Below the pieces are notes generated by a model, which ran no database searches, was not told the origin of the DNA, and saw only the letters and a program-made list of their open reading frames with translations. Made by a program: the position numbers and the translations under genes. Positions 1-42,150 of a DNA stretch of 42,150 nucleotides are shown here, one piece after another (the first letter of the stretch is position 1; each line of letters opens with the position of its first letter). This stretch comes from a virus, in IMG/VR virus record IMGVR_UViG_3300036790_000187, positions 1 through 42,150 of that record; one strand, written 5' to 3'.

Positions 1-127
1 CCTTCAGCTGGAACTCGATGTCCTTGCGTCGCTGTTCCGCAGCCTGACGACGAGCCTCAGACTTGATGACGTAAGGCAGCTGAATGATCATGTCGAGCTT
101 GCCGGAGCTGGATTGTTCGTCGACTTG
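1..127. repeat. Terminal direct repeat, left copy (assembly overlap)
   Basis: Identical to 42024-42150. It lies inside the portal gene and joining the copies restores one reading frame, so it is an overlap of a circular assembly, not a biological terminal repeat. Confidence 0.95.
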
Positions 128-2513: not shown

Positions 2514-3302
2514 CTAGGAGACGCTGGCCGCGTATCGCTGGCCCGCGCCGACGGGCTGCAGCTCGATGCCGTAGGCGTGCGGGATGTTGGCGTCCGGGAA
2601 TCGCAGGACCTTGCCGGCGTCGGTGTGGTCGGGCTTCCAGGAGTTGCTCAGAACGAGCGGGCCGGTGTCGAGCAGCAGGACGACGCGAAGGTCGGGCTGG
2701 TTGTTGCCGACCGTGTCGAATGCGACCTGCACGATGTGCTTGCTTCCTTGGCTCCAGGAGAGCGTGACGAAACCGCCTTGTGCCTGCATGCTGTCCTCCT
2801 CGTCGTCGACCGTCGGAGCGGCCGGTGTCGCTGTTGATGCCGGCTTCGGGTCGATGCCAGGCAGGTACGGCGCGGCTGAGGAAGTGTCGTACTTGTCGTT
2901 GGACGCGTACTGCTTCATCAGAGCGCCGGCGGGGATCGTCGGGTCGTTGTCGTACTTGGCGATCCACCAGTTGGGTTCGGCGACCTTGGCGAGACTGAAG
3001 GCGAGCTTGCCCGCGGACCAGTTCGAGAAGTTCGTGTTGATCCACGGGTCTTCGCCGGCGGCACGACGCATCTCGACCCAGCCGACCCACTGCTGCCAGG
3101 TCCCGTTGTCGGGCGGACCGTCGCCGATGACGCCTTCGTTGTGCGCCGGGTTCGTCGTGATCTTGATGACCAGCTTACTCGGGAACTTCGCAGCGATGGC
3201 CGCAGCATCGGGCCAGTTGCCGTCGTCGTAACCGAGGTAGCCGTCTCCGCCAGCCGGCAGATTGTTGACGTCGATCGCGTCGTAGAACGTTCGGGTACTC
3301 AT
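2514..3302 (-). CDS. Putative endolysin with GH25-like (glycoside hydrolase-like) fold
   Basis: A 262-residue protein. The first ~145 residues resemble the TIM-barrel glycoside-hydrolase-like proteins of actinobacteria and their phages: FYDAIDVNNLPAGGDGYLGY at the start, then a WVGWVEMRRAAGEDPWI segment and a WWIAKYDNDPTI strand. A Pro/Thr/Ala/acidic linker follows (about 150-170), then a beta-rich C-terminal domain of about 90 residues that may bind the wall. The canonical GH25 Asp-x-Glu pair is not clear; the matching stretch reads HNEGVIGDGPPDN, so catalysis is unproven. Its ATG overlaps the stop of the upstream gene (ATGA). It sits before the terminase, far from the holin, so a virion-borne or structural wall hydrolase is an alternative to a classic endolysin. 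Confidence 0.5.
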   Translation of the reverse strand: MSTRTFYDAIDVNNLPAGGDGYLGYDDGNWPDAAAIAAKFPSKLVIKITTNPAHNEGVIGDGPPDNGTWQQWVGWVEMRRAAGEDPWINTNFSNWSAGKLAFSLAKVAEPNWWIAKYDNDPTIPAGALMKQYASNDKYDTSSAAPYLPGIDPKPASTATPAAPTVDDEEDSMQAQGGFVTLSWSQGSKHIVQVAFDTVGNNQPDLRVVLLLDTGPLVLSNSWKPDHTDAGKVLRFPDANIPHAYGIELQPVGAGQRYAASVS

Positions 3303-3724
3303 GAGCTTGCCGCCTTCGTGACGACCGTCTTGAGTGCCTTGCCTGCCGGACTGTTGACGGTGTTGTAGATGTCGGCCAAGGTCTTGCCTGCGGCGAGAAC
3401 CTTCTTGACGTGCGAGTGACCCTTCTCGAACTTGTTCGGGGTCTGGCCGGCGAGGTTGCGATGGTTCGCCTCGAGCTGCATCCGAGTGTTCAGTTGCTGA
3501 AGCTCGTGGTTGGCCAGAGACTTGACTCCGCCGGTGCGCAGCTTCGTCTTGATCGCCTCGGCGTTCTGATGATCCTCGGAGCCGGCACCATTGGAGGTGG
3601 AGGAGCGCGAGGAGGAGGAACCTTTACGCACGCCCCACTTCATTCCCTTGACACCGTGATGCGCTAGAACGTTTCCCACCACGGTTGCACCGGTGGCTGC
3701 GGTGTCGGATCCGGGTCCGTCCAC
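3299..3724 (-). CDS. HHGVKGMKWGVR-type virion-associated protein
   Basis: Predicted 141 residues from GTG 3724-3722, which has a GGAAGGAG site four bases upstream; the frame stays open further up but without such a site. Near the start it carries AHHGVKGMKWGVRKG, a signature found at the ends of many phage head or tail proteins of Gram-positive hosts and often near capsid or connector genes. A Ser-rich linker and a helical C-terminal part rich in Ala, Lys and Leu follow. It overlaps the end of the gp6-like connector gene by about 60 bp and the start of the lysin by four, so it is translationally coupled. The exact role of the motif is not known to me; a structural or maturation role is inference. 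Confidence 0.6.
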   Translation of the reverse strand: MDGPGSDTAATGATVVGNVLAHHGVKGMKWGVRKGSSSSRSSTSNGAGSEDHQNAEAIKTKLRTGGVKSLANHELQQLNTRMQLEANHRNLAGQTPNKFEKGHSHVKKVLAAGKTLADIYNTVNSPAGKALKTVVTKAASS

Positions 3725-4062
3725 GAGACTCCTTCCCTCTTCGTGTTGAGCCGCCATTCGAACATCTGGAGCTGTTCGTTCATCGCGTTGATGACGAACG
3801 AGTTCTGTGGCGGGTCGAACAACATCCGTACACGAAGACCCATGTAGGTCTTGACGGAGTTGAGATTGTTGTCGGTCCCGACGAAGGCGTCCCACGTGGT
3901 CGAGTTGTCCTCGATCATGAAACCTGCGTCAGGTCCGATGCCCAGCTGGTTCAGAACCATGAACACTGAGTTGATGTGCAGTACAAACTGATCATCGAAC
4001 ACAGTGTAACTGGGATCTACACTGCAGATTCTTTTGATTCCGTCGAGAATACTGTCGGCCAC
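3664..4062 (-). CDS. gp6-like head-tail connector (adaptor)
   Basis: A 132-residue protein that matches the pattern of small phage connector proteins: ADSILDGIKRICSVD at the start, HINSVFMVLNQLGIGP in the middle, a TTWDAFV turn, and the LRVRMLFDPPQNSF and MFEWRLN helices near the end. Such adaptors bind under the portal and join head to tail. I place the start at GTG 4062-4060 because GGGAGG lies eight bases upstream; an upstream extension is possible but lacks a ribosome site. The tail end is Pro/Trp rich. It lies between an HNH nuclease gene and a structural gene, and away from the other head-completion genes at 38.7-39.3 kb. Confidence 0.7.
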   Translation of the reverse strand: MADSILDGIKRICSVDPSYTVFDDQFVLHINSVFMVLNQLGIGPDAGFMIEDNSTTWDAFVGTDNNLNSVKTYMGLRVRMLFDPPQNSFVINAMNEQLQMFEWRLNTKREGVSWTDPDPTPQPPVQPWWETF

Positions 4063-4087: not shown

Positions 4088-4495
4088 TCACCACAACTTC
4101 GTGTCGCCTCGTCTGCGCTCAACGAGTTTCCTCGGAAGCAGATCTGCGTTTCCGTAGTGGATCGCGTTGTGTGTTCGATGAGTCACTGAGATTAAGAACT
4201 CAGGATCGAGTATCTTTGGATCTCCTTCTACGATGTCTTCGACATTCATCGGATTCATGTGGTGAATGTAGATCTTGTCGTGGATATCGTAGCCATCGAT
4301 CCCGAGGTCGCATCCTTCATCACGTAGGATCACATAACTTCGGATATTGCGCCATTCAGTGGATCGATAAAAGTCTTGGTTGAGATAACGATCGAAGCCG
4401 AAGGTTATATCTCCAACCTGGCCATGTAACGCGAGGTATTTGTATCTTTCCTCGAGCGTATCCAAACGGCGGAGCTGAGAATAAGTTCTAACCAT
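4088..4495 (-). CDS. HNH endonuclease next to the terminase
   Basis: A 135-residue HNH nuclease. The fold is visible as TEWRNIRSYVILRDEGCDL (start of the beta-beta-alpha unit), the His pair in IYIHHMNPMN, and the final THRTHNAIHYGN. Start at ATG 4495-4493, overlapping the end of the small terminase gene by eight bases, so it is coupled to it. HNH proteins encoded beside terminases take part in cutting DNA at cohesive ends during packaging (established for HK97-type phages). This is the most likely job here, rather than homing. One cysteine only is seen in the region, so it is not the zinc-bound four-cysteine type. Confidence 0.85.
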   Translation of the reverse strand: MVRTYSQLRRLDTLEERYKYLALHGQVGDITFGFDRYLNQDFYRSTEWRNIRSYVILRDEGCDLGIDGYDIHDKIYIHHMNPMNVEDIVEGDPKILDPEFLISVTHRTHNAIHYGNADLLPRKLVERRRGDTKLW

Positions 4496-4838
4496 CGTAT
4501 TCGTCCGCTTGATCCATCGACTCGGGTGCATGCCCCGAGTAAGTGCGCATTGCGTCCAGAGCTTTCTTGTATAGCTCCTCCACTCTCGCTTGGGAAGCCA
4601 GTTGATCGATCCGAGACTTCGTCAAGATGTTCTCGTGCTCGATCTTCTGCTGCTCAAGCTTCTCCCGTGTGGAACCAAGCTTCAGGAAGTGCGTAACTTC
4701 CTGTGACGTGGCGCTGCCTTCACGAATTCGCTTCTCAACGAGGTCGTAAGCCAGTGAGATCAGCTGGCTTTCCCTACCTTCAGGAGTTGTGGCTGGTCTG
4801 CTGCGCCTAGAATTCGAGCCCCCAGACTTTGCTGGCAC
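4488..4838 (-). CDS. terS: Terminase small subunit (putative)
   Basis: A 116-residue protein starting at GTG 4838-4836, eight bases after AAAGGAG. After a basic Ser/Arg-rich N-terminus it reads TPEGRESQLISLAYDLVEKR, then SATSQEVTHFLKLGSTREKLE and a charged helix ending in RVEELYKKALDAM. I recognise this as the pattern of a small-terminase family common in phages of Gram-positive bacteria. The protein would form a ring that recognises the packaging site and loads the large subunit. It is the first gene after the longest gene-free stretch (4839-5191), which fits a packaging site directly upstream. The downstream HNH and large terminase genes support the call. Confidence 0.65.
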   Translation of the reverse strand: MPAKSGGSNSRRSRPATTPEGRESQLISLAYDLVEKRIREGSATSQEVTHFLKLGSTREKLEQQKIEHENILTKSRIDQLASQARVEELYKKALDAMRTYSGHAPESMDQADEYDG

Positions 4839-5191
4839 AGTTACAACTCCTTTCAGCTAAGGTTTCAGGACTATGTAGCGGGCTTTCCCCCGGATCAAGA
4901 TCACAAACCTCCTGGTTTTTGTCCCTCCGGGGCAATTTTTGGTGGACAGGCGATGCATAGGGGGGTCTAATTTTGCGAGACCCCGCCCCCATACCTAACC
5001 TAGAGATAGCTCCTACGAAGTTGCGATCTCATTGTGTTACGTAAAACAAAGTACAAGTTTGTTGAACTCATCAACCAATCAGAAGTCCGAACATCAATCG
5101 AATGATACGACTGATGAACAGACAACTGATCGATCGACGACAAGCAACAACGACAACGATAGTGGTACATCATTGTAGTGTGTGGGTGTAG
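4839..5191. other. 353-bp gene-free region, candidate cos/packaging site and module boundary
   Basis: No supported gene lies here. It separates the end of the RNA polymerase module from the first late gene. The part near the terminase gene (about 4890-4990) holds short GC-rich blocks (CCTCCGGGGC, GGGGGGTCT, ACCCCGCCCCC) among A/T tracts, as cohesive-end sites often do. The distal part (5000-5190) is AT-rich with short palindromes (TTACGTAA at 5037-5044, GTTGA-N5-TCAAC near 5070, GATCGATC near 5130). A late promoter would be expected here, but I see no convincing -35/-10 pair. Assignment as cos rests on position and the HNH/terminase context, not on a recognised sequence. Confidence 0.4.
4962..4984. 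repeat. GGGGTCT inverted repeat upstream of the terminase gene
   Basis: A perfect 7-bp inverted repeat, GGGGTCT, with a 9-base spacer AATTTTGCG, then AGACCCC. The arms and parts of the spacer resemble the arms of the four 37-bp promoter elements at 21.5-25.5 kb, but there is no TATAAT here and the spacing is shorter. No U-run follows on either strand, so it is not a typical terminator. A protein-binding site or part of the packaging site is possible. Confidence 0.5.
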
Positions 5192-5452
5192 CTATTCGTT
5201 TGTTATGCTGCTGACTGCAGGTGCTTGTACCTTGATGTAGAAGTCACCGTTGTTGGCGACGATGTCATCAATCGCTTGTTCGATTGCCAAACTCTGATCT
5301 GCATCAGATAGTTCGTCTGACGTTCTCACCACACGACCTAGATACGAAAGTGTATTGTAGCCAGCTTGTTCATCCCAAGTCCGCCACTGATCGAACTCTG
5401 TGAACGGATCGTAAGGATTGTCTGATGTGGTGAGCATGTGTTCATCCATCAT
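5192..5452 (-). CDS. Small conserved acidic phage protein coupled to the RNA polymerase gene
   Basis: An 86-residue acidic protein. It contains DNPYDPFTEFDQWRTWDEQAGY, then TLSYLGRVVRTSDELSDADQS and a final alternating stretch GDFYIKVQAP. I recall similar 85-90 residue proteins in phages of Gram-positive gut bacteria, but know no function. Its ATG overlaps the stop of the RNA polymerase-like gene (ATGA), so the two are translated together, which suggests a partner or accessory role in transcription. This is inference from coupling alone. It is the last gene before the gene-free stretch. I see no clear terminator after it. Confidence 0.75.
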   Translation of the reverse strand: MMDEHMLTTSDNPYDPFTEFDQWRTWDEQAGYNTLSYLGRVVRTSDELSDADQSLAIEQAIDDIVANNGDFYIKVQAPAVSSITNE

Positions 5453-8109
5453 GCATCACCTTTACTAAGGCTTCGTTTGAGTGTAGACACAGACACACCA
5501 AGTTGATCAGCGACTTCTGCCTGTGTGTAACCATTACGAAGCATTGCAATTGCTTGGGTGACCTTGTTGCTAGTCAACTTGTCTCGAGACTTCGGTGTTG
5601 CTAGTTGCTTGACCTTGTCAAGATCAGCATTGTTCAAGATGTCGCGAAGTCGACTGGCACTGATCGCACCGGCTTGGATAGCGGCCCATTCGTCATCAGT
5701 GATTTCGATACGGGTCTTCTTTGCACCAGTACGATTACGAGCTTCTGTCAATGCCTGAGCTTTGATCTTCTTGATCTCAGACGGTTCTAGATCAGGATTC
5801 GCATTCTTCTTCTGACTTACGACAGAGTTTGCGATCACCTGAGCTTGTCGTTCTAGCGGACTGTTCCGAAGTGCAAGGTTCAGTTTCGCTTCGAGCGACT
5901 TGACCTGACTCGCGTAGTGATTCTTTGCAGCAGGTGAATACGGTGTCGGTTTGATCGTCACCGCTTGTTTCCTTGCTTGGTTTGCCAGATCTTTCAGTTT
6001 GTTCGAATGATCGGCGTAAATCTTTTCGATCGGTGTTCCAGACGACAGTGTGTGAGCATCGTCTGTCTCAGCCAACTTCGTTGAGGTGATCGTCTTCTTT
6101 ACTAGCTGGCCGGCACGATTGGTGTAACTCGTGCCAGTTTCTTCGTAGACTTTCTTACCTGTCTCTTTGTCGACTGGTCCACCTTCTGCAGCCGAACGAG
6201 ACTTTCTTTCAGGAACACGAGTTTCAGAAGTCGCCAAGGAGATCAGAGTCGAAGCGCCAGCATTCTTCTTTCCCTGATACTTTTCCTTGAGCTGTGCGAT
6301 TCCGTTGTCAACGGCAGATTGTTTCCAATCCAAATTGTGCTTTTCTGCATCGATGACAACCATTGAATGCCGGACTGCTCGAGCAAGTTCGGTACTCGTT
6401 GCACCACGAATCGTCATGTCAGTGATCAAGTTTGAAACCTGACCCATTTGAACTGCCTTGGTTTTCGGAGTCATCCTAGTCATACCTTCATAACTAGGGT
6501 AAGCTCGTTGCGGGTCGAAACCCTTCAAACCATCAAGCGCAGGTGCGGTTTTGATCTTACGACTGTTGTTCGGAATGACCAGAACGGTGTCACCATCGAA
6601 GTCAGCTCCAGACAAGCGCTCAGCGACACTGCTGTGAATGCCGATTGCGTCTTTCGCATTTCCGAGAAGTTTCTTCGCTTCCGGCTGCCGATTGTTTACG
6701 GTAAGTTCCGGAATTTCGAAGATGCCACCGTGAGGATAACGAACCAATGCCACGCGTTCGCCATCTCGGAAGTTAGGTGCATAAACTTCCGTCTCCTTCA
6801 TCGAATTGACTGGGAGTATGACATGCGAACCTTGACGGGGCAACGCTGCAGCTTTCAGATGAACAGCCGACGAATCGGCGTCATCAGCATACGATTCCAA
6901 CAGCTTCTTACGAACTGCCGGATTGTCGAGCGAACTGATCTCGTCGAGTTCGTTCTTCTTGCGCTGGAACGTCATGTCGAGCTGAGCCTTAGCCAAAGCC
7001 GGACTTTGCTTCGACAACATCTGAGACGACAAACTCTTTGACCAGTTTTCCCAGTCACCCTCCTCATTGACAATGTTCATCGCTGAGGTGACGTGCTTTT
7101 CGCCATCAGATCCGGTTTCCTGAATCTGACGAACGACTGCACCGAACGGGTTGTCAGGATCGTCTTTCATCGACTTCATGGCATCGAGCTTGTTGCCTGT
7201 CGACTTCTTGTTCGTGTTGAACTGCAGATCCGTGCCTTCAGGCAAGTCGTCCTTGTACATCGCCATGCCCTTGAGATAGTGCGTGCCACCAACAGCAACA
7301 CGAACCTGAGCATAACGAGCTGAGCCAAGCGACAGATCTTTGGTTCCAGGACGTACGTAGATGACGCCGTCAGCGTCTGTTCCGCCTTGTTCGGCGTATC
7401 GTACGTCAACACGACTGGGATCGACTGAAAGCGGTGGCAGAACCTTGTCGTAAGTACGACCACCATCGTCAGAGAAGTTTGTGATCTGCTGGATGTTGTC
7501 GCGATTCCGCAGAACTTCGCTATAAGTGGTGTCAGGTCCTGCAAGAACCTTGATCGTGGTGAACTGACCGGTTCCGAGTTGTTCCACCTTGACGTAATGA
7601 ACGGTGTAGCCTTCTTCTTGCAGTCGAGCGACTGCTACAGAAAGCTTATTCGAACTCACGCCTACATGATGTTCGACGCCAGAACCGATGTCGATGTATC
7701 CCTTTTCAGAGACCTGATCTTTCAACATGTTCGACGTCGACTCGAGGATGTCGGCCTTGTCTTTGGTGCCAGGTGCAAGAAGCGCACGAACTGACGATTC
7801 GTTCAAACTCATTCGTTCGCCGATAGCGACGTTTGAGTAACCCTTGTCCTTGAGTCGCTGCGCCATGTTGATCTGCGACTGCTTCTCTGCATTCTTCGCG
7901 ATCGAACGACCGGCACGAAGTTGGGTTGTGGTCATTCCGAAACCACGAGCGATCTCAGTGTCGCTCATACCTTGTTCGCGAAGACCATCAATCGTGCTGA
8001 GGAAAGTGCGGTTTCGCTCTTCCTGAGTTCCACCAGAACCCCAGGGATAACGCCCTGACTTGCGAAGGATGCCGTAGTGTTCTAACCACGTGTCTTCATC
8101 CATCTCCAT
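5449..8109 (-). CDS. Putative single-chain (YonO/QDE-1-like) RNA polymerase with helix-turn-helix domains
   Basis: An 886-residue protein starting at ATG 8109-8107 behind AAGGGGGTGG. Residues 501-511 read GADFDGDTVLV, the metal-binding ADFDGD signature of the double-psi beta-barrel in the beta-prime subunit of cellular RNA polymerase and in single-chain YonO/QDE-1-like polymerases. The N-terminus has HYGILRKSGRYPWGSG followed by two helix-turn-helix-like segments (about 38-72 and 82-112). The C-terminus has a third (about 848-881, NGYTQAEVADQLGVSVSTLKRS). A second barrel with its basic residues was not identified by eye. It probably transcribes phage genes, with the HTH parts binding DNA. The gene looks less GC-rich than the structural genes. 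A regulator that merely reuses the barrel is the alternative. Confidence 0.65.
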   Translation of the reverse strand: MEMDEDTWLEHYGILRKSGRYPWGSGGTQEERNRTFLSTIDGLREQGMSDTEIARGFGMTTTQLRAGRSIAKNAEKQSQINMAQRLKDKGYSNVAIGERMSLNESSVRALLAPGTKDKADILESTSNMLKDQVSEKGYIDIGSGVEHHVGVSSNKLSVAVARLQEEGYTVHYVKVEQLGTGQFTTIKVLAGPDTTYSEVLRNRDNIQQITNFSDDGGRTYDKVLPPLSVDPSRVDVRYAEQGGTDADGVIYVRPGTKDLSLGSARYAQVRVAVGGTHYLKGMAMYKDDLPEGTDLQFNTNKKSTGNKLDAMKSMKDDPDNPFGAVVRQIQETGSDGEKHVTSAMNIVNEEGDWENWSKSLSSQMLSKQSPALAKAQLDMTFQRKKNELDEISSLDNPAVRKKLLESYADDADSSAVHLKAAALPRQGSHVILPVNSMKETEVYAPNFRDGERVALVRYPHGGIFEIPELTVNNRQPEAKKLLGNAKDAIGIHSSVAERLSGADFDGDTVLVIPNNSRKIKTAPALDGLKGFDPQRAYPSYEGMTRMTPKTKAVQMGQVSNLITDMTIRGATSTELARAVRHSMVVIDAEKHNLDWKQSAVDNGIAQLKEKYQGKKNAGASTLISLATSETRVPERKSRSAAEGGPVDKETGKKVYEETGTSYTNRAGQLVKKTITSTKLAETDDAHTLSSGTPIEKIYADHSNKLKDLANQARKQAVTIKPTPYSPAAKNHYASQVKSLEAKLNLALRNSPLERQAQVIANSVVSQKKNANPDLEPSEIKKIKAQALTEARNRTGAKKTRIEITDDEWAAIQAGAISASRLRDILNNADLDKVKQLATPKSRDKLTSNKVTQAIAMLRNGYTQAEVADQLGVSVSTLKRSLSKGDA

Positions 8110-8125
8110 GAACTAACCACCCCCT

Positions 8126-8689
8126 TTACGCGTCGAGGTCTTGCCTGATCGCATCGATTCGCTTGTCGAAGGTAACTATCCGATCCATGATGAACAGGAT
8201 CTTTTCCGGATCAGCTTCGTACACCTTGATCTCGTCGTTCTGGTAGATCCGAAGCTCAGTCTCGATGAGATGCGGCTTCATTTCGTATTCCAGGCAGAAC
8301 AAGCCGGCGTAGACGTACAACTGGTTCTCAGACGTCCTCGTGATGCCGGTCTTGAGATCGTGGATTCGCAGCTTATCACGACGAAACGCAATCGTGTCCG
8401 CAGTGCCGTAGCAGTTGTACGAGTAGAACAACAGCTGTTCCGGAGTCATCTTGAAACCGATAGCGTCATTCACGTACTGGTTCATCGTCGTCGGAGTGTC
8501 AGGCAGCCTTTGTCCGAGGCGAATAGCTTGGCGTGCGAACTCGTGTAGCTCGGTACCGCGGCGTGCCGCCATGTGGCTTGTGAAGGCCACGTCGAGCTTG
8601 TTGTCGTCGTAGTTGATCCAGTGGTAGTTACTTGCTCCGAGGAACGCGTGAGTTCCTGCGAGATTGGGAGAGTGCGTGTTGAAGCGCAA
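8126..8689 (-). CDS. PD-(D/E)XK nuclease, RecB-like
   Basis: A 187-residue nuclease. The core is GTADTIAFRRDKLRIHDLKTGI: an Asp in the GTAD strand, then D-L-K as the (D/E)XK element, followed by the QLYVYAGLF helix that carries the conserved Gln-x-x-x-Tyr. Upstream lies ARRGTELHEFA, the family's His-containing motif I. The four cysteines of Cas4-type iron-sulphur nucleases are absent, so this is the plain RecB/YqaJ-like form. It starts at TTG 8689-8687 with AGAGGAAG six bases upstream and overlaps the end of the VRR-NUC gene by about 60 bp. Likely roles are recombination, end processing or degradation of DNA during replication. Confidence 0.8.
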   Translation of the reverse strand: MRFNTHSPNLAGTHAFLGASNYHWINYDDNKLDVAFTSHMAARRGTELHEFARQAIRLGQRLPDTPTTMNQYVNDAIGFKMTPEQLLFYSYNCYGTADTIAFRRDKLRIHDLKTGITRTSENQLYVYAGLFCLEYEMKPHLIETELRIYQNDEIKVYEADPEKILFIMDRIVTFDKRIDAIRQDLDA

Positions 8690-14223: not shown

Positions 14224-14468
14224 TATTCCTCCGTTTCGTATTCGTCCTCGGTCGGCTCCCTGCAGTACTCGTCGTAGTACGCGTCAATGGCGCCAACACG
14301 GTACTTCGGCGACAAGTGATTGGAGAAGCGCCGCCACTCAGTGCGGACTCGCTTTCGCCTCTCGTATTCACCCTTGTCTTCAAGCTCTCGAACAGTCTTC
14401 CCGAACTCGCGAGCCCGATTGCAGACTCGTGCCCTTTCGTTCTCGGTCTCTTCTCGTACCGTGCTCAC
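14223..14468 (-). CDS. Basic/charged coiled-coil-like protein, 81 residues
   Basis: Starts at GTG 14468-14466, overlapping the stop of the replicase gene (GTGA). The sequence is highly charged and helical (VSTVREETENERARVCNRAR, RELEDKGEYERRKRVRTEWR), then a NHLSPKYRVGAIDAYYDEYC stretch and an acidic end. Coupled to the polymerase fusion, so possibly an accessory factor. The frame stays open far upstream inside the polymerase gene, but that part is the shadow of another frame. No family recognised. Confidence 0.6.
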   Translation of the reverse strand: MSTVREETENERARVCNRAREFGKTVRELEDKGEYERRKRVRTEWRRFSNHLSPKYRVGAIDAYYDEYCREPTEDEYETEE

Positions 14469-17400
14469 TTGACGAACGCCTCGAAGTTGCCGAAGTTCTC
14501 GACCGTCTCGATGGCGTCGTTCACCATGTTCTCGAAGTAGCGCATATCGATGACGTCGGTGATGTAACCGCTGCCCTCGTTCCAGATCACCAACTCTTCG
14601 AACGTCCAGTTGGCCAGATCCAAGCCGAACGACTGAACCATCTCCGCTTCGAGCCAGAGGTAGTTCTTGGTGCCCGTCACGGCGTAGGTCTTGTCGTCCT
14701 TGACGCGGAGGAGAGACGCGCCACCAGCCGACTTGACCACCGGAACGAACAATCCAGTACGACCCACGAGATGCATGCCCTTGTAAGGCGTCGTCGGAGT
14801 TGCCTCGGCCTCGTTGAAGTCGAGGTACATCAACCCCTGCTTGACCTCCTTGGACTCGCAGAGGTCGCTGAACGTGATCGGCTCTAGACTGAACAGAGCC
14901 TTGAACACCACCGGATGCTGGAACTGCGCACCGGTTGCCGTCCATACGCCGTCCTTGCGAGCGACGTAGACCGCGTCATTCACGAGGCAGAACTTCTCGT
15001 AAGTAGCCTCGTGTTCGAACTCGTAGCCATATTTGGCGCCGAAGTCGCTGACGAACTGGATGATCTCCGGAGTTGCGTTGGGGATCTTGATCGAGTCCGT
15101 CTTGATGTGTGCGACCGTGAAACCCTGCTCTTGCACCGCGTGCTTCAGGTCGATCATGAACAGCGCACCGCGCTTCGCGCAGATGTTGTCCTTGTTGCGC
15201 GGATCACGGAACGGGTTGTCGAACTTCGCCGATGTGAGACCATAGACGATGTTGATTGCGATCTTCAGCGCATCCGACAGAGCCTTGAGGCCGGCCTTGT
15301 CGTCTTCGTTCTCGAGGTATGGGACCAATTTCCCACCGAGCATTTTTCTGGCGTCGTCGAACTGGCGCCGCTTGATCGCGATCCTCGCTTTTTTCAGCTC
15401 GGAGAACGCCGGCGTGTAATCGCCGAACATCTCCAGGTTCTCGATCGAAGTCGGATGCATGGAAGCGACGTCCAGAAGCGCGACATTCTCGTAAATGCCG
15501 GGCTCGGCGTAGACGTAACCTCCCTCTCCGACGAGTTCATCCCGGTATGTGCTCTTCCCGAAATCATAGACGTATCCCGGGAATTCCTCGCTCAAGTCCG
15601 TGTAAATGAACTTGCTCTGTGGACGACGGTCGTTTCCGAAGATGATCGTCGCAGCGTGCTTCTGGGTGGTGTCGTTGACCGTCAGACCGGACAGCTCGGT
15701 CAGGATCTGCCGTGCGGCGTAGTCGCCCTGCCGTGCCTTGTGTGTGGCCTCGGTGGCGAGAACGTCGTTTACGCAGTAGTCGACGACCTTCGGCCAGAGC
15801 GCGGGATCGACCGGCTCATCCCACGGAAGATCGAGCTCCATATGGTGCAGACCGAGTTCGATCTCCCACTTCTTGAGGCTCTTCTTCTCGGTGGCGTAGT
15901 CGTAGATGTCCGCATACGAGAGGTTGTACGCCTCGCCGAACATCGCGTTCGGGTTGCCGTCGATGATCTTCTTCGACAGCTCGTACAGCTGCTGGTTGTT
16001 GTATCCCATGAACGCAGCCCACAGGATGTGGTTGTCGTATCGCCGGTTGTTGAAGCCCACCAGTTTGAACTGGAACAGCGGTTCGATGTCCGTCACCTTC
16101 GGATTGATCATCCGCACGACGGTATCGCTGTTCTCGAACTTCCAGCAGATGACGAACAGGTTCGGATAGACCTCGATGTCGAAGAACACCAGGCGCTTAT
16201 CCTTGACGAACACCTCGTGGTTCTTGGTGAGACTTTCCACCGTGGCTTCGGAGGCGAACTTCATCTGCTTCACGGTCTTCAGACACGCGAGAGCCTGGTT
16301 ACTGCTGTTGTTGGCAAACGCCATGATCTTCGGACGCATGTCGGTCACGTCGTAGACCATACCGCTCTTGTACGCGTCGTCCAGGATCTTCACGATGAAG
16401 TCGATTGACGGCTTCGTGCCCGGGTGGATCTCCTTTCGCAGGTTACGTGCGATCAGTTCCCGGAGGCCCTTCTCGCTTTGGAGCGTTTTGGTTTCGATCA
16501 CAGTTGTCTTCTCCTTGAAAGGGAGACCACTGCTGATTGATGCAACAGGAATCCCGTTACACTTCGTCAGCTTTCGTCGGAGTGAGGCATTTCCGGAATA
16601 GACCTTGACCTCGATTCCATCGGAGTAAACCGATGAAAGTTCGGTGACATCGCCAGTGTAGTCATAGTGGAGATGGACTCCTCCACCAGACTTTGAAAGT
16701 TCGGCGTACGTAGCAGGCCAAGCGGATGCCGCCTCGAGATTTCGCTCAAGTGATTTTTTTCCATCACTGTCCTTGAGGTCAAAGTCAATGACGATGTGGT
16801 TTTCGGGGACGTTGACGTAGTGCACCTTGGAGGTGTCCACATCGGCAAGGGTCGTCTTCACATCCGACCACTTGTACAGAGGGGTCTCTTCTTCCGTGGC
16901 GCCCTGTGCCGGCAGCTCCGCATAACCTAGGTCGAAGATCGACTCGGTTTCGTCCAACACCAGCGAGAAAGTCTTGGTGTCGTGCATGAGCGGAGCCTTG
17001 TATGGCTGGGCCGTGAAGCCGCAGAAGTAGCTTCGATGAGCTGTACCGTCTACCGTGATGCGATCGTGGTATTCGGAGAAGTAGTTCTTGAGTTCCTCTC
17101 GAAGCCTGGGTTGAGTCATCTTGTACTCGAGCGCGGCTTCGGTGCAGTACTCCTTGTACATCGCCCAAGCCTGCTTGAGCGTCGTGCTGTCCTGCTCCTT
17201 GAAGATGTCGAAGTAGGCTTCAATGAAGTTGAAGAACATGTCCGTCTGGGACATCATTTCCAGCGGACGGTAGGCGCTGTAGTAGTTCTTACCCATCGCC
17301 CGATAAACTTCGAGGCAGTGATGCGCGATTGCACCCAGCTCAAAATCGATCTGCTGCATCAGTGTGAGATACCGGTTCACCGGCAGCAATGAGCCACTCG

Positions 17401-18286
17401 GGTGAACATCGATGAGCCTCCGGATGATTCCGGACTTGGCGTCACTGATCTTGACGGGTTTGTTGGTGCCCATGAACAAGAAGGCGTTGATCCGAGACAT
17501 GTAGCTCGGCTTGTACTTCTCGTTCATCGTCATCTCTTCGTGAGAGGTGATCGAGTTGAGCCGGCTGTTGTCCTCGATCTTGGACAAGTCGCCGTCGTGC
17601 TGGAACGCAACCAAGGGGTTGTGCTTGAATACCTCGGTAGCGAAAGAGTTGTTATTTCCCACGAGTGCTTTAGCGTCGAAAGCCGTGTAGTAGCTTTCGA
17701 ACAGCATCTGCATGATGTTCATGATCGTGGACTTGCCAGACCCAGGGGGGCCGTAGAACACCAGGAACTTCTGCAACTTCTTAGAGTCCCCAGAGAGCAC
17801 GGCCCCAATGGCCCATTCGAACTTCGCTCGCTCCTCGTCGGTGTACAGGGTAGTGGTGATCTCGTCCCATGCGGGATGCGGACCCTCGGCCAGAGAGTAC
17901 GGAAGTCGACGGCTCACGTAATCCGTCTTCTTAACCTCCGTGTTGGCGAACGTAAACTTCTCGTCGAGCTGATGCGAGTTGTCGCTTACGTTCTTCATAA
18001 ACTTGCGGAACTGGTTCCACCCGTTAGTGCCGTATGAACGGAGGAGTTTCGCATTGCACGACACGCCGTCGGCTTTCAGCTTGTCCGCGAACTCGGTTAC
18101 TGCTTGATCGACGAGACGCTGTACATCGTACTCGTCGGTGGACCAAAGGCCTTTTTCATCATCCCATATTGCGTAAAACGATTGACCGCGGACCATGAGA
18201 TCCTGTGATCTACCTACGGTGAAGTCGGGGAATACTTCGGTGACACCGCCCCGAGCTTCCTTCGTGCAGATTTGAAAGAAATCCAT
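14465..18286 (-). CDS. Replicase fusion: SF3 helicase + AEP-type primase + family B DNA polymerase
   Basis: One uninterrupted 1273-residue reading frame. Helicase part: Walker A GPPGSGKST (179-187), motif B region VAFQHDGDLS (226-235), motif C LFMGTNKP (270-277), as in D5/P4-like superfamily 3. Primase part (about 465-600): IDFD (500-503), GGGVHLHYDY (534-543, with the motif-II His) and IEVKVYSG (558-565), the three signatures of archaeo-eukaryotic primases. Polymerase part: exonuclease motifs FFDIEVYP (701-708), GFNNRRYDNH (744-753), YCVNDV (837-842); polymerase motifs DVASMHP (939-945), KIAINIVYG (1008-1016) and KTDS (1062-1065, in place of the usual DTDS). It would unwind, prime and copy the phage genome. 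Starts at ATG 18286 after AGGGAGGG. Confidence 0.85.
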   Translation of the reverse strand: MDFFQICTKEARGGVTEVFPDFTVGRSQDLMVRGQSFYAIWDDEKGLWSTDEYDVQRLVDQAVTEFADKLKADGVSCNAKLLRSYGTNGWNQFRKFMKNVSDNSHQLDEKFTFANTEVKKTDYVSRRLPYSLAEGPHPAWDEITTTLYTDEERAKFEWAIGAVLSGDSKKLQKFLVFYGPPGSGKSTIMNIMQMLFESYYTAFDAKALVGNNNSFATEVFKHNPLVAFQHDGDLSKIEDNSRLNSITSHEEMTMNEKYKPSYMSRINAFLFMGTNKPVKISDAKSGIIRRLIDVHPSGSLLPVNRYLTLMQQIDFELGAIAHHCLEVYRAMGKNYYSAYRPLEMMSQTDMFFNFIEAYFDIFKEQDSTTLKQAWAMYKEYCTEAALEYKMTQPRLREELKNYFSEYHDRITVDGTAHRSYFCGFTAQPYKAPLMHDTKTFSLVLDETESIFDLGYAELPAQGATEEETPLYKWSDVKTTLADVDTSKVHYVNVPENHIVIDFDLKDSDGKKSLERNLEAASAWPATYAELSKSGGGVHLHYDYTGDVTELSSVYSDGIEVKVYSGNASLRRKLTKCNGIPVASISSGLPFKEKTTVIETKTLQSEKGLRELIARNLRKEIHPGTKPSIDFIVKILDDAYKSGMVYDVTDMRPKIMAFANNSSNQALACLKTVKQMKFASEATVESLTKNHEVFVKDKRLVFFDIEVYPNLFVICWKFENSDTVVRMINPKVTDIEPLFQFKLVGFNNRRYDNHILWAAFMGYNNQQLYELSKKIIDGNPNAMFGEAYNLSYADIYDYATEKKSLKKWEIELGLHHMELDLPWDEPVDPALWPKVVDYCVNDVLATEATHKARQGDYAARQILTELSGLTVNDTTQKHAATIIFGNDRRPQSKFIYTDLSEEFPGYVYDFGKSTYRDELVGEGGYVYAEPGIYENVALLDVASMHPTSIENLEMFGDYTPAFSELKKARIAIKRRQFDDARKMLGGKLVPYLENEDDKAGLKALSDALKIAINIVYGLTSAKFDNPFRDPRNKDNICAKRGALFMIDLKHAVQEQGFTVAHIKTDSIKIPNATPEIIQFVSDFGAKYGYEFEHEATYEKFCLVNDAVYVARKDGVWTATGAQFQHPVVFKALFSLEPITFSDLCESKEVKQGLMYLDFNEAEATPTTPYKGMHLVGRTGLFVPVVKSAGGASLLRVKDDKTYAVTGTKNYLWLEAEMVQSFGLDLANWTFEELVIWNEGSGYITDVIDMRYFENMVNDAIETVENFGNFEAFVK

Positions 18287-21539: not shown

Positions 21540-21555
21540 GGCAGGCCTTTCGGTA

Positions 21556-21592
21556 GGGGTCTCATTATAGGCCCCGTTTTTCCTGCGACCCC
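21556..21592 (-). promoter_or_regulatory. Repeated promoter element, copy 1
   Basis: A 37-bp element on the minus strand: GGGGTCGCAGGAAAAAC at the upstream end, TATAAT as a perfect -10, then GAGACCCC. The GGGGTC and GACCCC ends are inverted repeats around the promoter. There is no TTGACA -35. It lies directly upstream of the 47-residue gene. Other copies: 24692-24728, 25043-25079, 25447-25483. Confidence 0.75.
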
Positions 21593-24673: not shown

Positions 24674-24691
24674 GGAAGTTCCTTTCGGGTA

Positions 24692-24728
24692 GGGGTCTCA
24701 TTATAAGCCATGTTTTTTTCGCGACCCC
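24692..24728 (-). promoter_or_regulatory. Repeated promoter element, copy 2
   Basis: Same 37-bp layout as copy 1: GGGGTCGCGAAAAAAAC, TATAAT, GAGACCCC on the minus strand. It lies 18 bp upstream of the 67-residue gene, and immediately after the terminator-bounded previous cassette. Confidence 0.78.
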
Positions 24729-25025: not shown

Positions 25026-25042
25026 GGCAGTCCAATCAGATA

Positions 25043-25079
25043 GGGGTCTCATTATACGCCATGTTTTTTCTGCGAGGCA
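25043..25079 (-). promoter_or_regulatory. Repeated promoter element, copy 3
   Basis: Minus strand TCGCAGAAAAAAC, TATAAT, GAGACCCC in the same 37-bp spacing. The upstream arm is degenerate (TGCCTCGCA in place of GGGGTCGCA), so the inverted repeat is broken here while the -10 and downstream arm are kept. Confidence 0.75.
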
Positions 25080-25429: not shown

Positions 25430-25446
25430 GGCTTAGCCTCTCAGTA

Positions 25447-25483
25447 GGGGTCTCATTATAACCTAAGTAATTCCTGCGACCCC
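25447..25483 (-). promoter_or_regulatory. Repeated promoter element, copy 4
   Basis: Minus strand GGGGTCGCAGGAATTAC, TATAAT, GAGACCCC, 37 bp. Both GGGGTC/GACCCC arms are intact; the A-tract is diverged. It marks the start of the accessory module right after the Acb2-like gene. Confidence 0.75.
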
Positions 25484-39287: not shown

Positions 39288-41432
39288 TCAGCTGTTGCTG
39301 TTGGCGCCGTCCGGGTTCGGGCGGTTGAAGGTCCAGTACGCCGTCTGGTTGCCGGACAGCGGGAAGTAGTAGCCCGACGCCGGAGTGGCCTGCACGGTCA
39401 TGCTGGTGTCCACGGCGATGGCGGTCTGCGCGCCGGCCGTGAGGGTGTTGCCGTTGCCGTCCTTGTAGACGACGCCGGTCTCGGTCGGGATGGTGACGAC
39501 GCCGGTGCTCGCGACGAAGGTCGGGACGGTCGGGGTGACGGCCGTGTCCGAGGTCGGCACGGTCCAGATGACCAGAGCCGCCTTCGGGGTGGAGAGCGCG
39601 CCGGAGATGCGGGTCTCGCCGAGGTACTTGTACTGGTTGTAGTCGATGTCGAAGAAGTCGAAGAGGTTGACCTCGCCGCCCTTGTCCGCGCCGACGTTGT
39701 AGTCCGAGGTGTTGAAGATGACGCCCCACAGGTTGGCCGGCGCGGTGCCCGACTCCATGACCTCGACCGGGATGATGTCCGCGACGTTCATCGCGGCCGC
39801 CAGCGACGCCTTGTCCGGGTAGAGCCGCCGGTTCAGAGTGTCCTTGATGAGGAGCATCTTCGTGAGGTTGCCCCACGTGGTGTACAGGGTCGGCATGCCG
39901 GTGCCCTTGTAGTACTCCATGGAGGCGAGGACCGCCTCGACGAGCGTCTCGTAGTTCGGGGTCGACGTGAGGTTCACGTTGACGTCCGTCTTGTAGAGCT
40001 CGTGCTCGTTGACGATCGAGCGCAGGCCGGCGCCGCTCTGCGCGTTGCCGGGGTCGGCGATCTTGTCGACGTCCTCGATGTCCCGGCCGTCGCTGATGAG
40101 GATCGCGCGGGCGATCTCCTCCTTCAGCATGACCATCATCTCGTCCTTCATCCACGCCACCACGTCGAAGTCGGTGATGTCGATGATGTCGTCGCGGTCG
40201 AGCTGCTGCTTCTTGTAGATCGTGGTCGGGGTGGTGAAGCGCTTGGAGACCGAGAACCACTCCTCGCGCTTGATGTTCCCCTTGACGTAGCCCTTGGCGC
40301 GGGCCTCGTCCATGGTGATGTCCGCGACGATGGACTTCACGCGGGAGAACGGGGAGTGACTCAGTCCGTCGAGGAACGGCTGGACCCACTCCATGCGCCG
40401 GCTGTTGAACTTCGGCGTCGAGTCGAGGGACTTGTATTCCGGGAAGAGGACGTCGATCGGGGTGATGCCGTGCGCGAGCACCGCCTCCTCGAACGCCATC
40501 TTCAGCGTCATGCCGGGCTTCTGGGCGGCCTCGAAGATCGCCCGCTTGTCGTTGGCGTTGAAGAGGACGTCGACGTGCTGGAACTTGTTGCCCGTGTCGG
40601 GGTTGGTCGCGCCGTGCTGCAGCCCACGCGAGTTCTGGAGGGCGGTGGCACTGTGCGTCTCGAAGACGTTGGTCATGTTGGGATCGGCTCCTTCCTGGTG
40701 GCTGAGGTCACCCTCGCCGGACTTGTTGTTGTCGGAGTGCTCGGCGTCGGTGTCCGACCCGTCTCCGTCGCCTTCGTCTCCGTCGTCACCGTTGCCGGCG
40801 TTCTCGACGGCCTGACCGACGACGTAGTTCATGAAATCCTGCTGCTCGGGCGTCATGGAATTCCAGACGTCCTGCAGAGGCTTGTCGGTGGCGTCACCCG
40901 GAGCGTCGTTTCCGTCACCGCTGGTACCGCCGTCACCGTCAGTGTCCTCGCCGTGGAAGAGCGCCAGGCCGGTGAAGATGATCGCCTCGTCCTCGAGCTC
41001 GTCCATCGAGCCGTCGGCGTGACGGATGTTGACGTGGTCGATGACAGCGCCCTTGTTCGCGCCGGCCAGAACGAGGCTGGTCTCACGGATGTTGCCGTGT
41101 ATGACCGCCTTGCCGCCGTTCATGGCCTTCTCGATGAGGTCGTTGGCGTAGATCGACAGCGCCTTGACATCGCCGTGCTTGACGAGCTCGTGCGCGTTCT
41201 TGCCGCTCGGCGTCGAGTTGAAGTAGCCGTCTATGCGGACGCCGGGTTCCGGCTCCATGACGTGCTTGAGGATGCCGTAGCCCAGGACGTTGTCCGCACT
41301 GTTGTGACCGTGCTGCCAGACGAGCGGGACCTGCATTCCGTCGTTGTGCTTGAACGCGTCGGCCATGATCGTTCGTCCGTCAGTGCACTTGATGTTGGCC
41401 TTCGTGGCCCAGCCGCTGAAGTCAGGCTCCAT
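39288..41432 (-). CDS. Prohead protease fused to HK97-type major capsid protein
   Basis: A 714-residue fusion. Residues 1-160 form an S78-like prohead protease: PLVWQHGHNSADNVLGYG (His), VRIDGYFNSTPSGKNAHELV, VKALSIYAND (nucleophile Ser93), IRETSLVLAGANKGAVIDHV. An acidic, Gly/Asp-rich linker with VWNSMTPEQQDFMNYVVG (about 160-250) may act as scaffold domain. The capsid part runs from about 253 (NMTNVFETHSATALQNSRGL) with KSIVADITMDEARAKGYVKG, DFDVVAWMKDEMMVMLKEEI and AAMNVADIIPVEVMESG. The last ~75 residues are an Ig-like decoration (TVPTFVASTGVVTIPTETGV). ATG start behind AGGAGG; overlaps the portal end. Confidence 0.9.
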   Translation of the reverse strand: MEPDFSGWATKANIKCTDGRTIMADAFKHNDGMQVPLVWQHGHNSADNVLGYGILKHVMEPEPGVRIDGYFNSTPSGKNAHELVKHGDVKALSIYANDLIEKAMNGGKAVIHGNIRETSLVLAGANKGAVIDHVNIRHADGSMDELEDEAIIFTGLALFHGEDTDGDGGTSGDGNDAPGDATDKPLQDVWNSMTPEQQDFMNYVVGQAVENAGNGDDGDEGDGDGSDTDAEHSDNNKSGEGDLSHQEGADPNMTNVFETHSATALQNSRGLQHGATNPDTGNKFQHVDVLFNANDKRAIFEAAQKPGMTLKMAFEEAVLAHGITPIDVLFPEYKSLDSTPKFNSRRMEWVQPFLDGLSHSPFSRVKSIVADITMDEARAKGYVKGNIKREEWFSVSKRFTTPTTIYKKQQLDRDDIIDITDFDVVAWMKDEMMVMLKEEIARAILISDGRDIEDVDKIADPGNAQSGAGLRSIVNEHELYKTDVNVNLTSTPNYETLVEAVLASMEYYKGTGMPTLYTTWGNLTKMLLIKDTLNRRLYPDKASLAAAMNVADIIPVEVMESGTAPANLWGVIFNTSDYNVGADKGGEVNLFDFFDIDYNQYKYLGETRISGALSTPKAALVIWTVPTSDTAVTPTVPTFVASTGVVTIPTETGVVYKDGNGNTLTAGAQTAIAVDTSMTVQATPASGYYFPLSGNQTAYWTFNRPNPDGANSNS
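40670..40700 (-). promoter_or_regulatory. Possible internal ribosome site and start for the free capsid protein
   Basis: Within the fusion gene, minus strand AGGAAGGAG is followed 11 bases later by ATG 40676-40674, exactly at the protease-linker/capsid border (Met253, MTNVFETHS). Initiation here would give a 462-residue capsid protein without protease. The spacing is slightly long. Confidence 0.4.
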
Positions 41433-42150
41433 TTTGACTGTTTCCTCCTGTCCCTGTGAGTTGCCGCTGTAGCAGCGGATGGATCGCCGGTCTTGGTACC
41501 GGACTCAAGCCCGGTGGCTGAGCCGACGGTAGGAATTGCTGCTTCTGAGGCATCCGACTGTCTGGCGGAGGCGGTGGCGTCGGCATGTTGCTGTTGATCA
41601 GCTGATCTGCCTTCGGATCCTTCGACGGCTTCCAACCGATTGCGTTGCGGAGTTCGTTGGCGGAAGCAATCTCGTTCCTGGACAGCATGTCGGCGATCTT
41701 CGCGAAGTCCGCCATCGGAACAAGAGAGAACGGGTTCCTGAAGTAGGTGATGGACTGACCCTGAGACCTTGCGGTCTTGCTCAGGAACGTCGCCTTCATG
41801 GCTTCGACCACGGCAGTCACGATCGGCTCGATGGTTCGGACGAGGTAGTTGTTCATCGTGGCCTCGTCGGCTGAGCCATTCATGATCGTGTCAGTGAGCC
41901 CGAGCTGATCGTACAGCATGGACGTCAAGTACGTGATCTGATCCATCAAGTTGTTCGTTGCCGGCCTGTTGAGCTGAGTGATCTTCTCGGTTCCGTCAGT
42001 GTAGGCGATGCCGTACTGACTGCCCTTCAGCTGGAACTCGATGTCCTTGCGTCGCTGTTCCGCAGCCTGACGACGAGCCTCAGACTTGATGACGTAAGGC
42101 AGCTGAATGATCATGTCGAGCTTGCCGGAGCTGGATTGTTCGTCGACTTG
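41422..42150 (-). CDS. Portal protein, C-terminal part (continues at base 1 copy)
   Basis: The remaining part of the portal gene (see 1-736). It reads through 42150 because 42024-42150 duplicate 1-127. Portal-like features are IIQLPYVIKSEARRQAAEQR, QITYLTSMLYDQLGLTDTIM, ADEATMNNYLVRTIEPIVTA, VVEAMKATFL, MADFAKIADMLSRNEIASAN and ELRNAIGWKPSKDPKADQLI, the last being the usual GW.P end motif. A Pro-rich tail follows. The stop at 41422 overlaps the start of the protease-capsid gene by 11 bp. Confidence 0.88.
   Translation of the reverse strand, partial: QVDEQSSSGKLDMIIQLPYVIKSEARRQAAEQRRKDIEFQLKGSQYGIAYTDGTEKITQLNRPATNNLMDQITYLTSMLYDQLGLTDTIMNGSADEATMNNYLVRTIEPIVTAVVEAMKATFLSKTARSQGQSITYFRNPFSLVPMADFAKIADMLSRNEIASANELRNAIGWKPSKDPKADQLINSNMPTPPPPPDSRMPQKQQFLPSAQPPGLSPVPRPAIHPLLQRQLTGTGGNSQNGA
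42024..42150. repeat. Terminal direct repeat, right copy (assembly overlap)
   Basis: Exact copy of bases 1-127. The length of 127 equals a common assembler k-mer size, which supports an artefact of circular assembly. Confidence 0.95.

Follow-up and report, generated by a model that had tools for sequence, protein, structure and literature searches.

The DNA analysed here, which we call the window (42,150 nucleotides), carries an open reading frame of 886 uninterrupted codons at 5449-8109 on the minus strand, the strand on which the other phage genes identified in the window also lie. In a PHROGs profile search, residues 2-883 of its product matched phrog_4291 ('RNA-dependent RNA polymerase') over the full length with 1380 bits, and by this match phrog_4291 is the family to which the window protein belongs; from the reading frame, the profile match and an AF2 model searched with Foldseek, we annotate the gene as that of a single-chain two-barrel RNA polymerase of 886 aa. 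The neighbouring genes, all on the minus strand, comprise an exonuclease gene directly upstream (8126-8689; phrog_3953, 8e-74), which is the same neighbour in relatives, an 86-aa partner gene (5192-5452; phrog_4303) whose start codon overlaps the polymerase stop codon, and, beyond the interval 4839-5191, the first late gene (4488-4838; phrog_4259), an HNH endonuclease gene adjoining cos (4088-4531; phrog_4321, 2e-65) and the late gene for the terminase large subunit (756-2498; phrog_9, 5e-111). The polymerase sits between the early genes and the cos/late genes, and relatives keep the order exonuclease, polymerase, partner, noncoding stretch and late genes (HNH, terminase, portal, capsid). Because an identical 127-nt direct repeat stands at both ends of the window (1-127 = 42024-42150), the window is probably a complete genome of 42,023 bp that was assembled as a circle. 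After the portal gene lies a 714-aa open reading frame (39288-41432, minus strand); the annotation of phage RosaAsantewaa gives a fusion of major capsid protein and protease for the gene at this position.

Homologues of the polymerase were found by tblastn in 250 records of a phage collection, with host genera that include Streptomyces, Arthrobacter, Gordonia and Lactococcus and with many culturable phages among them. Contigs of bacterial genomes, mostly from Clostridia, often carry the family too, and these copies are presumably prophages. Most records, the SEA-PHAGES entries, label the protein an HTH protein, and several RefSeq entries label it an RNA-dependent RNA polymerase. A preliminary description made from the letters alone had proposed a phage polymerase candidate at 5449-8109; the reading frame is real and the polymerase assignment is supported below, whereas the strand had been left out, and the family turns out to be widespread, with polymerase already as its name in PHROGs and RefSeq.

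The metal-binding motif ADFDGD lies at residues 502-507 (6589-6606, minus strand) in the context RYPHG...DAIGIHSSVAERLSGADFDGDTVLVIP, exactly where it had first been read. Across 213 full-length homologues (170 at <90% identity), which reach down to ~41% identity to the window protein, the metal triad D503, D505 and D507 is identical in every sequence, as are D247, R270, K280, G281, R457, P459, D564, D587 and K590; within the motif itself only F504 departs from invariance, being kept in 212. As the triad and the other catalytic residues are identical in 213/213 homologues, the alignment indicates that the motif is not a chance occurrence. The second (beta-prime-like) barrel region, residues 427-513 (6571-6831, minus strand), holds R457xP459H460 and the metal triad and was delimited from the model strands and an alignment with YonO over 434-564. 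The putative first (beta-like) barrel region, residues 234-298 (7216-7410, minus strand), was placed from model strands and carries D247-G248, Q268, R270 and K280-G281, invariant in 213/213. In the model, the basic residues R270 and K280-G281 fall in a strand-rich region upstream of the metal triad, and the motif together with the secondary structure suggests that this region forms the other of the two barrels, giving basic residues to the active site. The SEA-PHAGES annotation would instead make the protein a catalytically dead regulator, an HTH DNA-binding protein, and the HTHs are indeed real; the invariance of the catalytic residues down to such low identity makes this reading, the commonest in the records, extremely improbable.

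AlphaFold, given an alignment of 59 sequences at 41-79% identity to the window protein, returned a model of the polymerase with a pLDDT of 83.5 and a pTM of 0.71. Upon searching the PDB with Foldseek, we found that all 10 matches at E<=1e-3 were two-barrel single-chain polymerases, namely QDE-1 (2e-9), P74-26 gp62 / P23-45 gp64 (9e-8) and maize/Arabidopsis RDR2 (1e-6, 1e-5), with the largest chains of cellular multisubunit RNAPs following at E 0.007 and above; P23-45 gp64 was also matched in BFVD. The TM-scores were low (~0.24-0.44, with an rmsd near 20 A), meaning that the local fold was matched and the domain placement was not, and hence the overall domain arrangement is not established. The structural comparison that the preliminary description had proposed thus bears out the fold, though not the arrangement of the domains. 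Neither Pfam nor PHROGs nor the listed Foldseek hits contained the palm domain of a T7-type single-subunit RNA polymerase. At the level of sequence, searching the PDB with the single protein or the family profile yielded HTH-type and unrelated matches only, plus a weak match to the active-site region of P23-45 gp96 (E=0.52); similarity to other polymerases was undetectable outside the DxDGD region, and in whole-profile hhalign comparisons the catalytic block alone aligned, weakly. Together, the fold search and the invariant catalytic residues support the proposal of a single-chain two-barrel polymerase of the YonO/QDE-1 kind, and on the predicted structure we hold with high confidence that the protein is a two-barrel RNA polymerase, distantly related to the cellular gene-transcribing enzyme.

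Taken at face value, the PHROGs and RefSeq names would make it an RNA-dependent RNA polymerase, and the best structural matches do include QDE-1 and RDR2; the eukaryotic-type RdRP model PF05183, however, matched at E=0.027 with 13.6 bits, well below its gathering cut-off of 23.8 bits. The literature searched contained no functional study of the family behind the name of phrog_4291. Moreover, DNA-binding HTHs are fused at both ends of the protein, the phage that carries it has a dsDNA genome and is not known to pass through an RNA stage, and YonO and P23-45 gp64, which belong to the same superfamily, use DNA templates. We consider RNA-dependent synthesis very improbable and, by analogy with these enzymes, DNA very likely to be the template.

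The HTH-like segments that had been noticed at both ends differ in how firmly they can be assigned. At the C-terminus, residues 844-883 (5461-5580, minus strand) form a secure, sigma-region-4-like HTH, with matches to Pfam HTH_7 (1.9e-9) and Sigma70_r4_2 (26.1 vs cut-off 25.7 bits) and a further match above the cut-off for HTH_23. At the N-terminus, predicted helices at 36-45, 50-56, 61-88, 93-100 and 104-110 fit two tandem HTHs, and profile matches over 45-65 and 80-119 lie below the Pfam cut-offs at E ~1e-3; owing to the helix positions and these sub-threshold matches, a tandem pair is probable, made up of residues 36-70 (7900-8004, minus strand; CENP-B_N, E=0.0015) and 78-112 (7774-7878, minus strand; RepB over 80-119, E=7e-4). 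The HTH units are common to the whole polymerase family and are no fusion peculiar to the window phage, and it is plausible that they take part in promoter recognition.

Ahead of the N-terminal HTHs, residues 9-26 (8032-8085, minus strand) carry the motif LxHYGxxRxSGRYPWGSG, most positions of which are kept in ~206-210 of the 213 homologues within a segment predicted to be disordered (residues 6-32, pLDDT <50), and which was absent from the plasmids searched. Its beginning, LxHYG(I/V), is similar to the first residues of the 25-aa tag DUF7211: hhalign gave 83% for 8 aligned columns, and roughly half the N-termini of the polymerases outscored nearly all controls, a relation that we regard as suggestive only. 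DUF7211 itself (PF23847, HxGxKGMKWG) occurs on late-region proteins, in the window at 3299-3895 (minus strand) as well as at L055, L178, L048 and many prophage loci, and is fused in relatives to Gln_amidase-like or 2'-5' RNA ligase-like domains; it may tag proteins that act on the bacterial host for delivery or for the virion.

We found the polymerase to be accompanied by the partner in every case tested, making the partner obligate; the first reading had missed it, and it is not described in the papers searched. Where at least 450 nt of sequence followed the polymerase, the partner was present on the same strand in 126/126 loci and adjacent in 122, and the converse search, starting from the partner alone, found the polymerase upstream in 74/74 loci (best-scoring hits, mostly close relatives of the window). 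Each of the two occurs in 250 phage records with the same genus tallies, as compared by totals and tallies, and a partner of this type was absent from the stretches of YonO loci examined. The partner has the consensus MLTTxDNPYDPFxQFDxWxxFDxxxGYNT with invariant T9, D11, N12, P13, P16, W23 and D27, and its predicted model is a confident small fold (pLDDT 91); a fold search gave no PDB match and profile searches no Pfam or NCBIfam match. Because the two genes overlap and never separate, their arrangement suggests a working pair; we lean towards the partner acting directly on the polymerase, and the simplest guess for its role is that of a specificity or initiation factor.

Downstream of the partner, the interval 4839-5191 had been put forward as a target of the polymerase. 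This is not supported as stated, since the conserved sequence within it is that of a cos site: the element at 4921-4990 (minus strand), a G-rich/C-rich repeat with TGCAT CGCC... and GCCCCGGAGGGAC, is conserved across loci and reads GGGGGCGGGGTCTCGCAAAATTAGACCCCCCTATG|CATCGCC...GCCCCGGAGGGAC, it contains the published virion ends of Streptomyces phage RosaAsantewaa (...CTGCATCGCCCGCCT / CCTATATTTTCCTCCGGGGG), and TGCAT is where several contigs stop. The interval as a simple promoter region was accordingly rejected. The element remains recognisable downstream of the partner from Streptomyces (actinobacterial) phages to Clostridia prophages, and when its Clostridia form was sought by DNA pattern alone, 10/10 loci with upstream sequence had the polymerase and the partner there, which may reflect shared descent of the block or an element that also serves transcription. 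Scanning 4839-5191 for promoters and terminators gave no more hits than shuffled sequences, and there was no Rfam match in the window or in seven relatives. As the conserved sequence is explained by cos, no promoter is identified between partner and late genes; the interval does stand where the late genes begin, as in the case of YonO, and a late promoter may still lie in it. We also considered a two-component polymerase in which the partner is a dedicated initiation factor and the conserved cos-spanning element is the main start site. Such an arrangement, which we think unlikely, would let late transcription work only after the genome ends join and would couple gene expression to circularisation and packaging.

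Clostridia relatives, prophages with this polymerase, carry, between cos and the first late gene, a 28-bp RNA hairpin with a UUUCUCCUUUC-containing loop (L199:11290-11419, L165:11081-11222, L157:11148-11304 and 16 more loci) that was not found in the window and is without an Rfam match. Its sequences point to strong covariation: 24 of the 28 pairs show changes on both sides, the covariation score is 0.74 vs 0.34, and the G-U pairs (72/537) fit the sense strand only. Pairing holds in 93% of cells, compared with 75% for shuffled sequences and no more than 50% after sliding, in sequences that were picked by longest inverted repeat, a choice that favours pairing but has less influence on compensatory changes and on the slide control.

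The repeated elements that had been proposed as possible targets of the polymerase do exist. A repeat scan found their core GGGGTCTCATTATA (reverse complement TATAATGAGACCCC) in 4 exact copies, where 0.07 copies would be expected even if up to 2 mismatches are allowed, within early promoter-like repeats on the minus strand at 25436-25483 (TATAATGAGACCCC), 25032-25079, 24681-24728 and 21545-21592. Where inspected, each stands shortly before a small early gene, and in relatives the TATAAT element either directly follows the lysis genes or precedes the polymerase gene by ~3 kb. Because the element precedes the polymerase gene in relatives, the host enzyme must read it first, and as the promoter for making a polymerase cannot depend on that polymerase, the repeats suit the host enzyme, a possibility that the preliminary description had also allowed and with which the early-gene position is in line. 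As targets of the phage polymerase the repeats are unlikely, and the position before early genes and upstream of the polymerase gene leaves that proposal unsupported; they look like host-type promoters. The TATAAT is flanked by an inverted repeat GGGGTC...GACCCC and has a poor -35 box; the repeats are operator-like and perhaps under the control of a repressor or activator.

These repeats also bear on whether the polymerase might be packaged in the virion and injected to transcribe the first genes, like P23-45 gp96 or the enzymes of crAss-like phages or N4. Virion polymerases are known in the two-barrel superfamily (PMC10770324), and the LxHYG(I/V) motif resembles the start of the tag found on other proteins of these phages, including that of ORF 3299-3895. 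But the similarity spans 8 residues only, the polymerase gene is at the end of the early region, and the TATAAT promoters of the early genes fit the host enzyme, and we therefore regard a virion polymerase as improbable.

We instead consider it likely that the protein unites both double-psi barrels in a single chain, makes RNA on a DNA template and transcribes late genes together with its partner. The host enzyme would transcribe the early genes, that of the polymerase included; the phage polymerase would then take over the operon of structural and lysis genes, starting near cos (4839-5191) in the manner of YonO in SPbeta, and its HTHs, perhaps with the partner as initiation or specificity factor, would aid late transcription. 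Taken by itself, the late-gene role is one that we favour with moderate confidence. A function in priming or assisting DNA replication or recombination, rather than in late transcription, would fit the exonuclease and VRR-Nuc genes that adjoin the polymerase in relatives, but is quite improbable given that PHROGs profiles assign the phage its own primase/polymerase (14465-18286), that the enzyme carries a sigma-4-like HTH and that YonO, the precedent, serves late transcription.

Few polymerases of the single-chain two-barrel type have been studied so far, and the YonO paper (PMC5467207) poses as an open question how enzymes like YonO locate their promoters. In some 250 sequenced phage records the phrog_4291 family combines a sigma-4-like HTH, built into the polymerase chain, with a small obligate partner, and since many of these records come from culturable phages, promoter recognition becomes directly testable. 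Reading the protein as such a polymerase would also correct the misleading 'RNA-dependent RNA polymerase' and 'HTH protein' labels.

Among known systems, QDE-1 and plant RDR2 (fold matches at 2e-9 and 1e-6) are cell-encoded RdRPs that serve eukaryotic RNA silencing, whereas the phage protein falls short of the Pfam RdRP model; neither is known to carry HTHs. The non-virion RNA polymerase P23-45 gp64 / P74-26 gp62, a single-chain two-barrel phage enzyme (PMC10770324), matches in fold at 9e-8 but is smaller (~600 aa), has no detectable full-length sequence similarity to the window polymerase and serves early and some middle genes of its own phage. In NC_009803 the crystallised gp64 of Thermus phage P23-45 (L307/L309) goes by the annotation 'head protein'.

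YonO of Bacillus phage SPbeta (phrog_8308) is likewise a single chain, of ~840 aa, and shares with the window polymerase the motif order DG, R...KG, RxPH, DxDGD, GxxSNxIT, ID..K (in YonO D249-G250, R266, K271-G272, R492xP494H495, FDNDGD and GxxSNxIT). Its transcripts of the SPbeta late genes start right behind yonO itself, beside an unannotated noncoding RNA (PMC5467207), and yonO lies directly upstream of the late operon, similar to the position of the polymerase in relatives. The YonO profile, by contrast, matches the window polymerase over residues 435-515 only (E=6.6e-4) and not over the full length; its hhalign alignment covers the catalytic block only (E=0.005, probability 7%), pairing RxPH, DxDGD and GxxSNxIT. 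YonO ends in CxxC...CxxC (C799, C802, C816 and C819 invariant), where the phrog_4291 family has its HTH, and there are no cross-hits between YonO loci and the phrog_4291 profile. By its anatomy the window polymerase works like YonO, yet the separate profiles and the four-cysteine C-terminus in place of an HTH set the two apart as families. Very probably, the window protein is an RNA polymerase that has its double-psi barrels in a single chain and belongs to a family of its own, phrog_4291, distinct from YonO: a widespread variant of an already known enzyme type, with a likely function in late-gene transcription.
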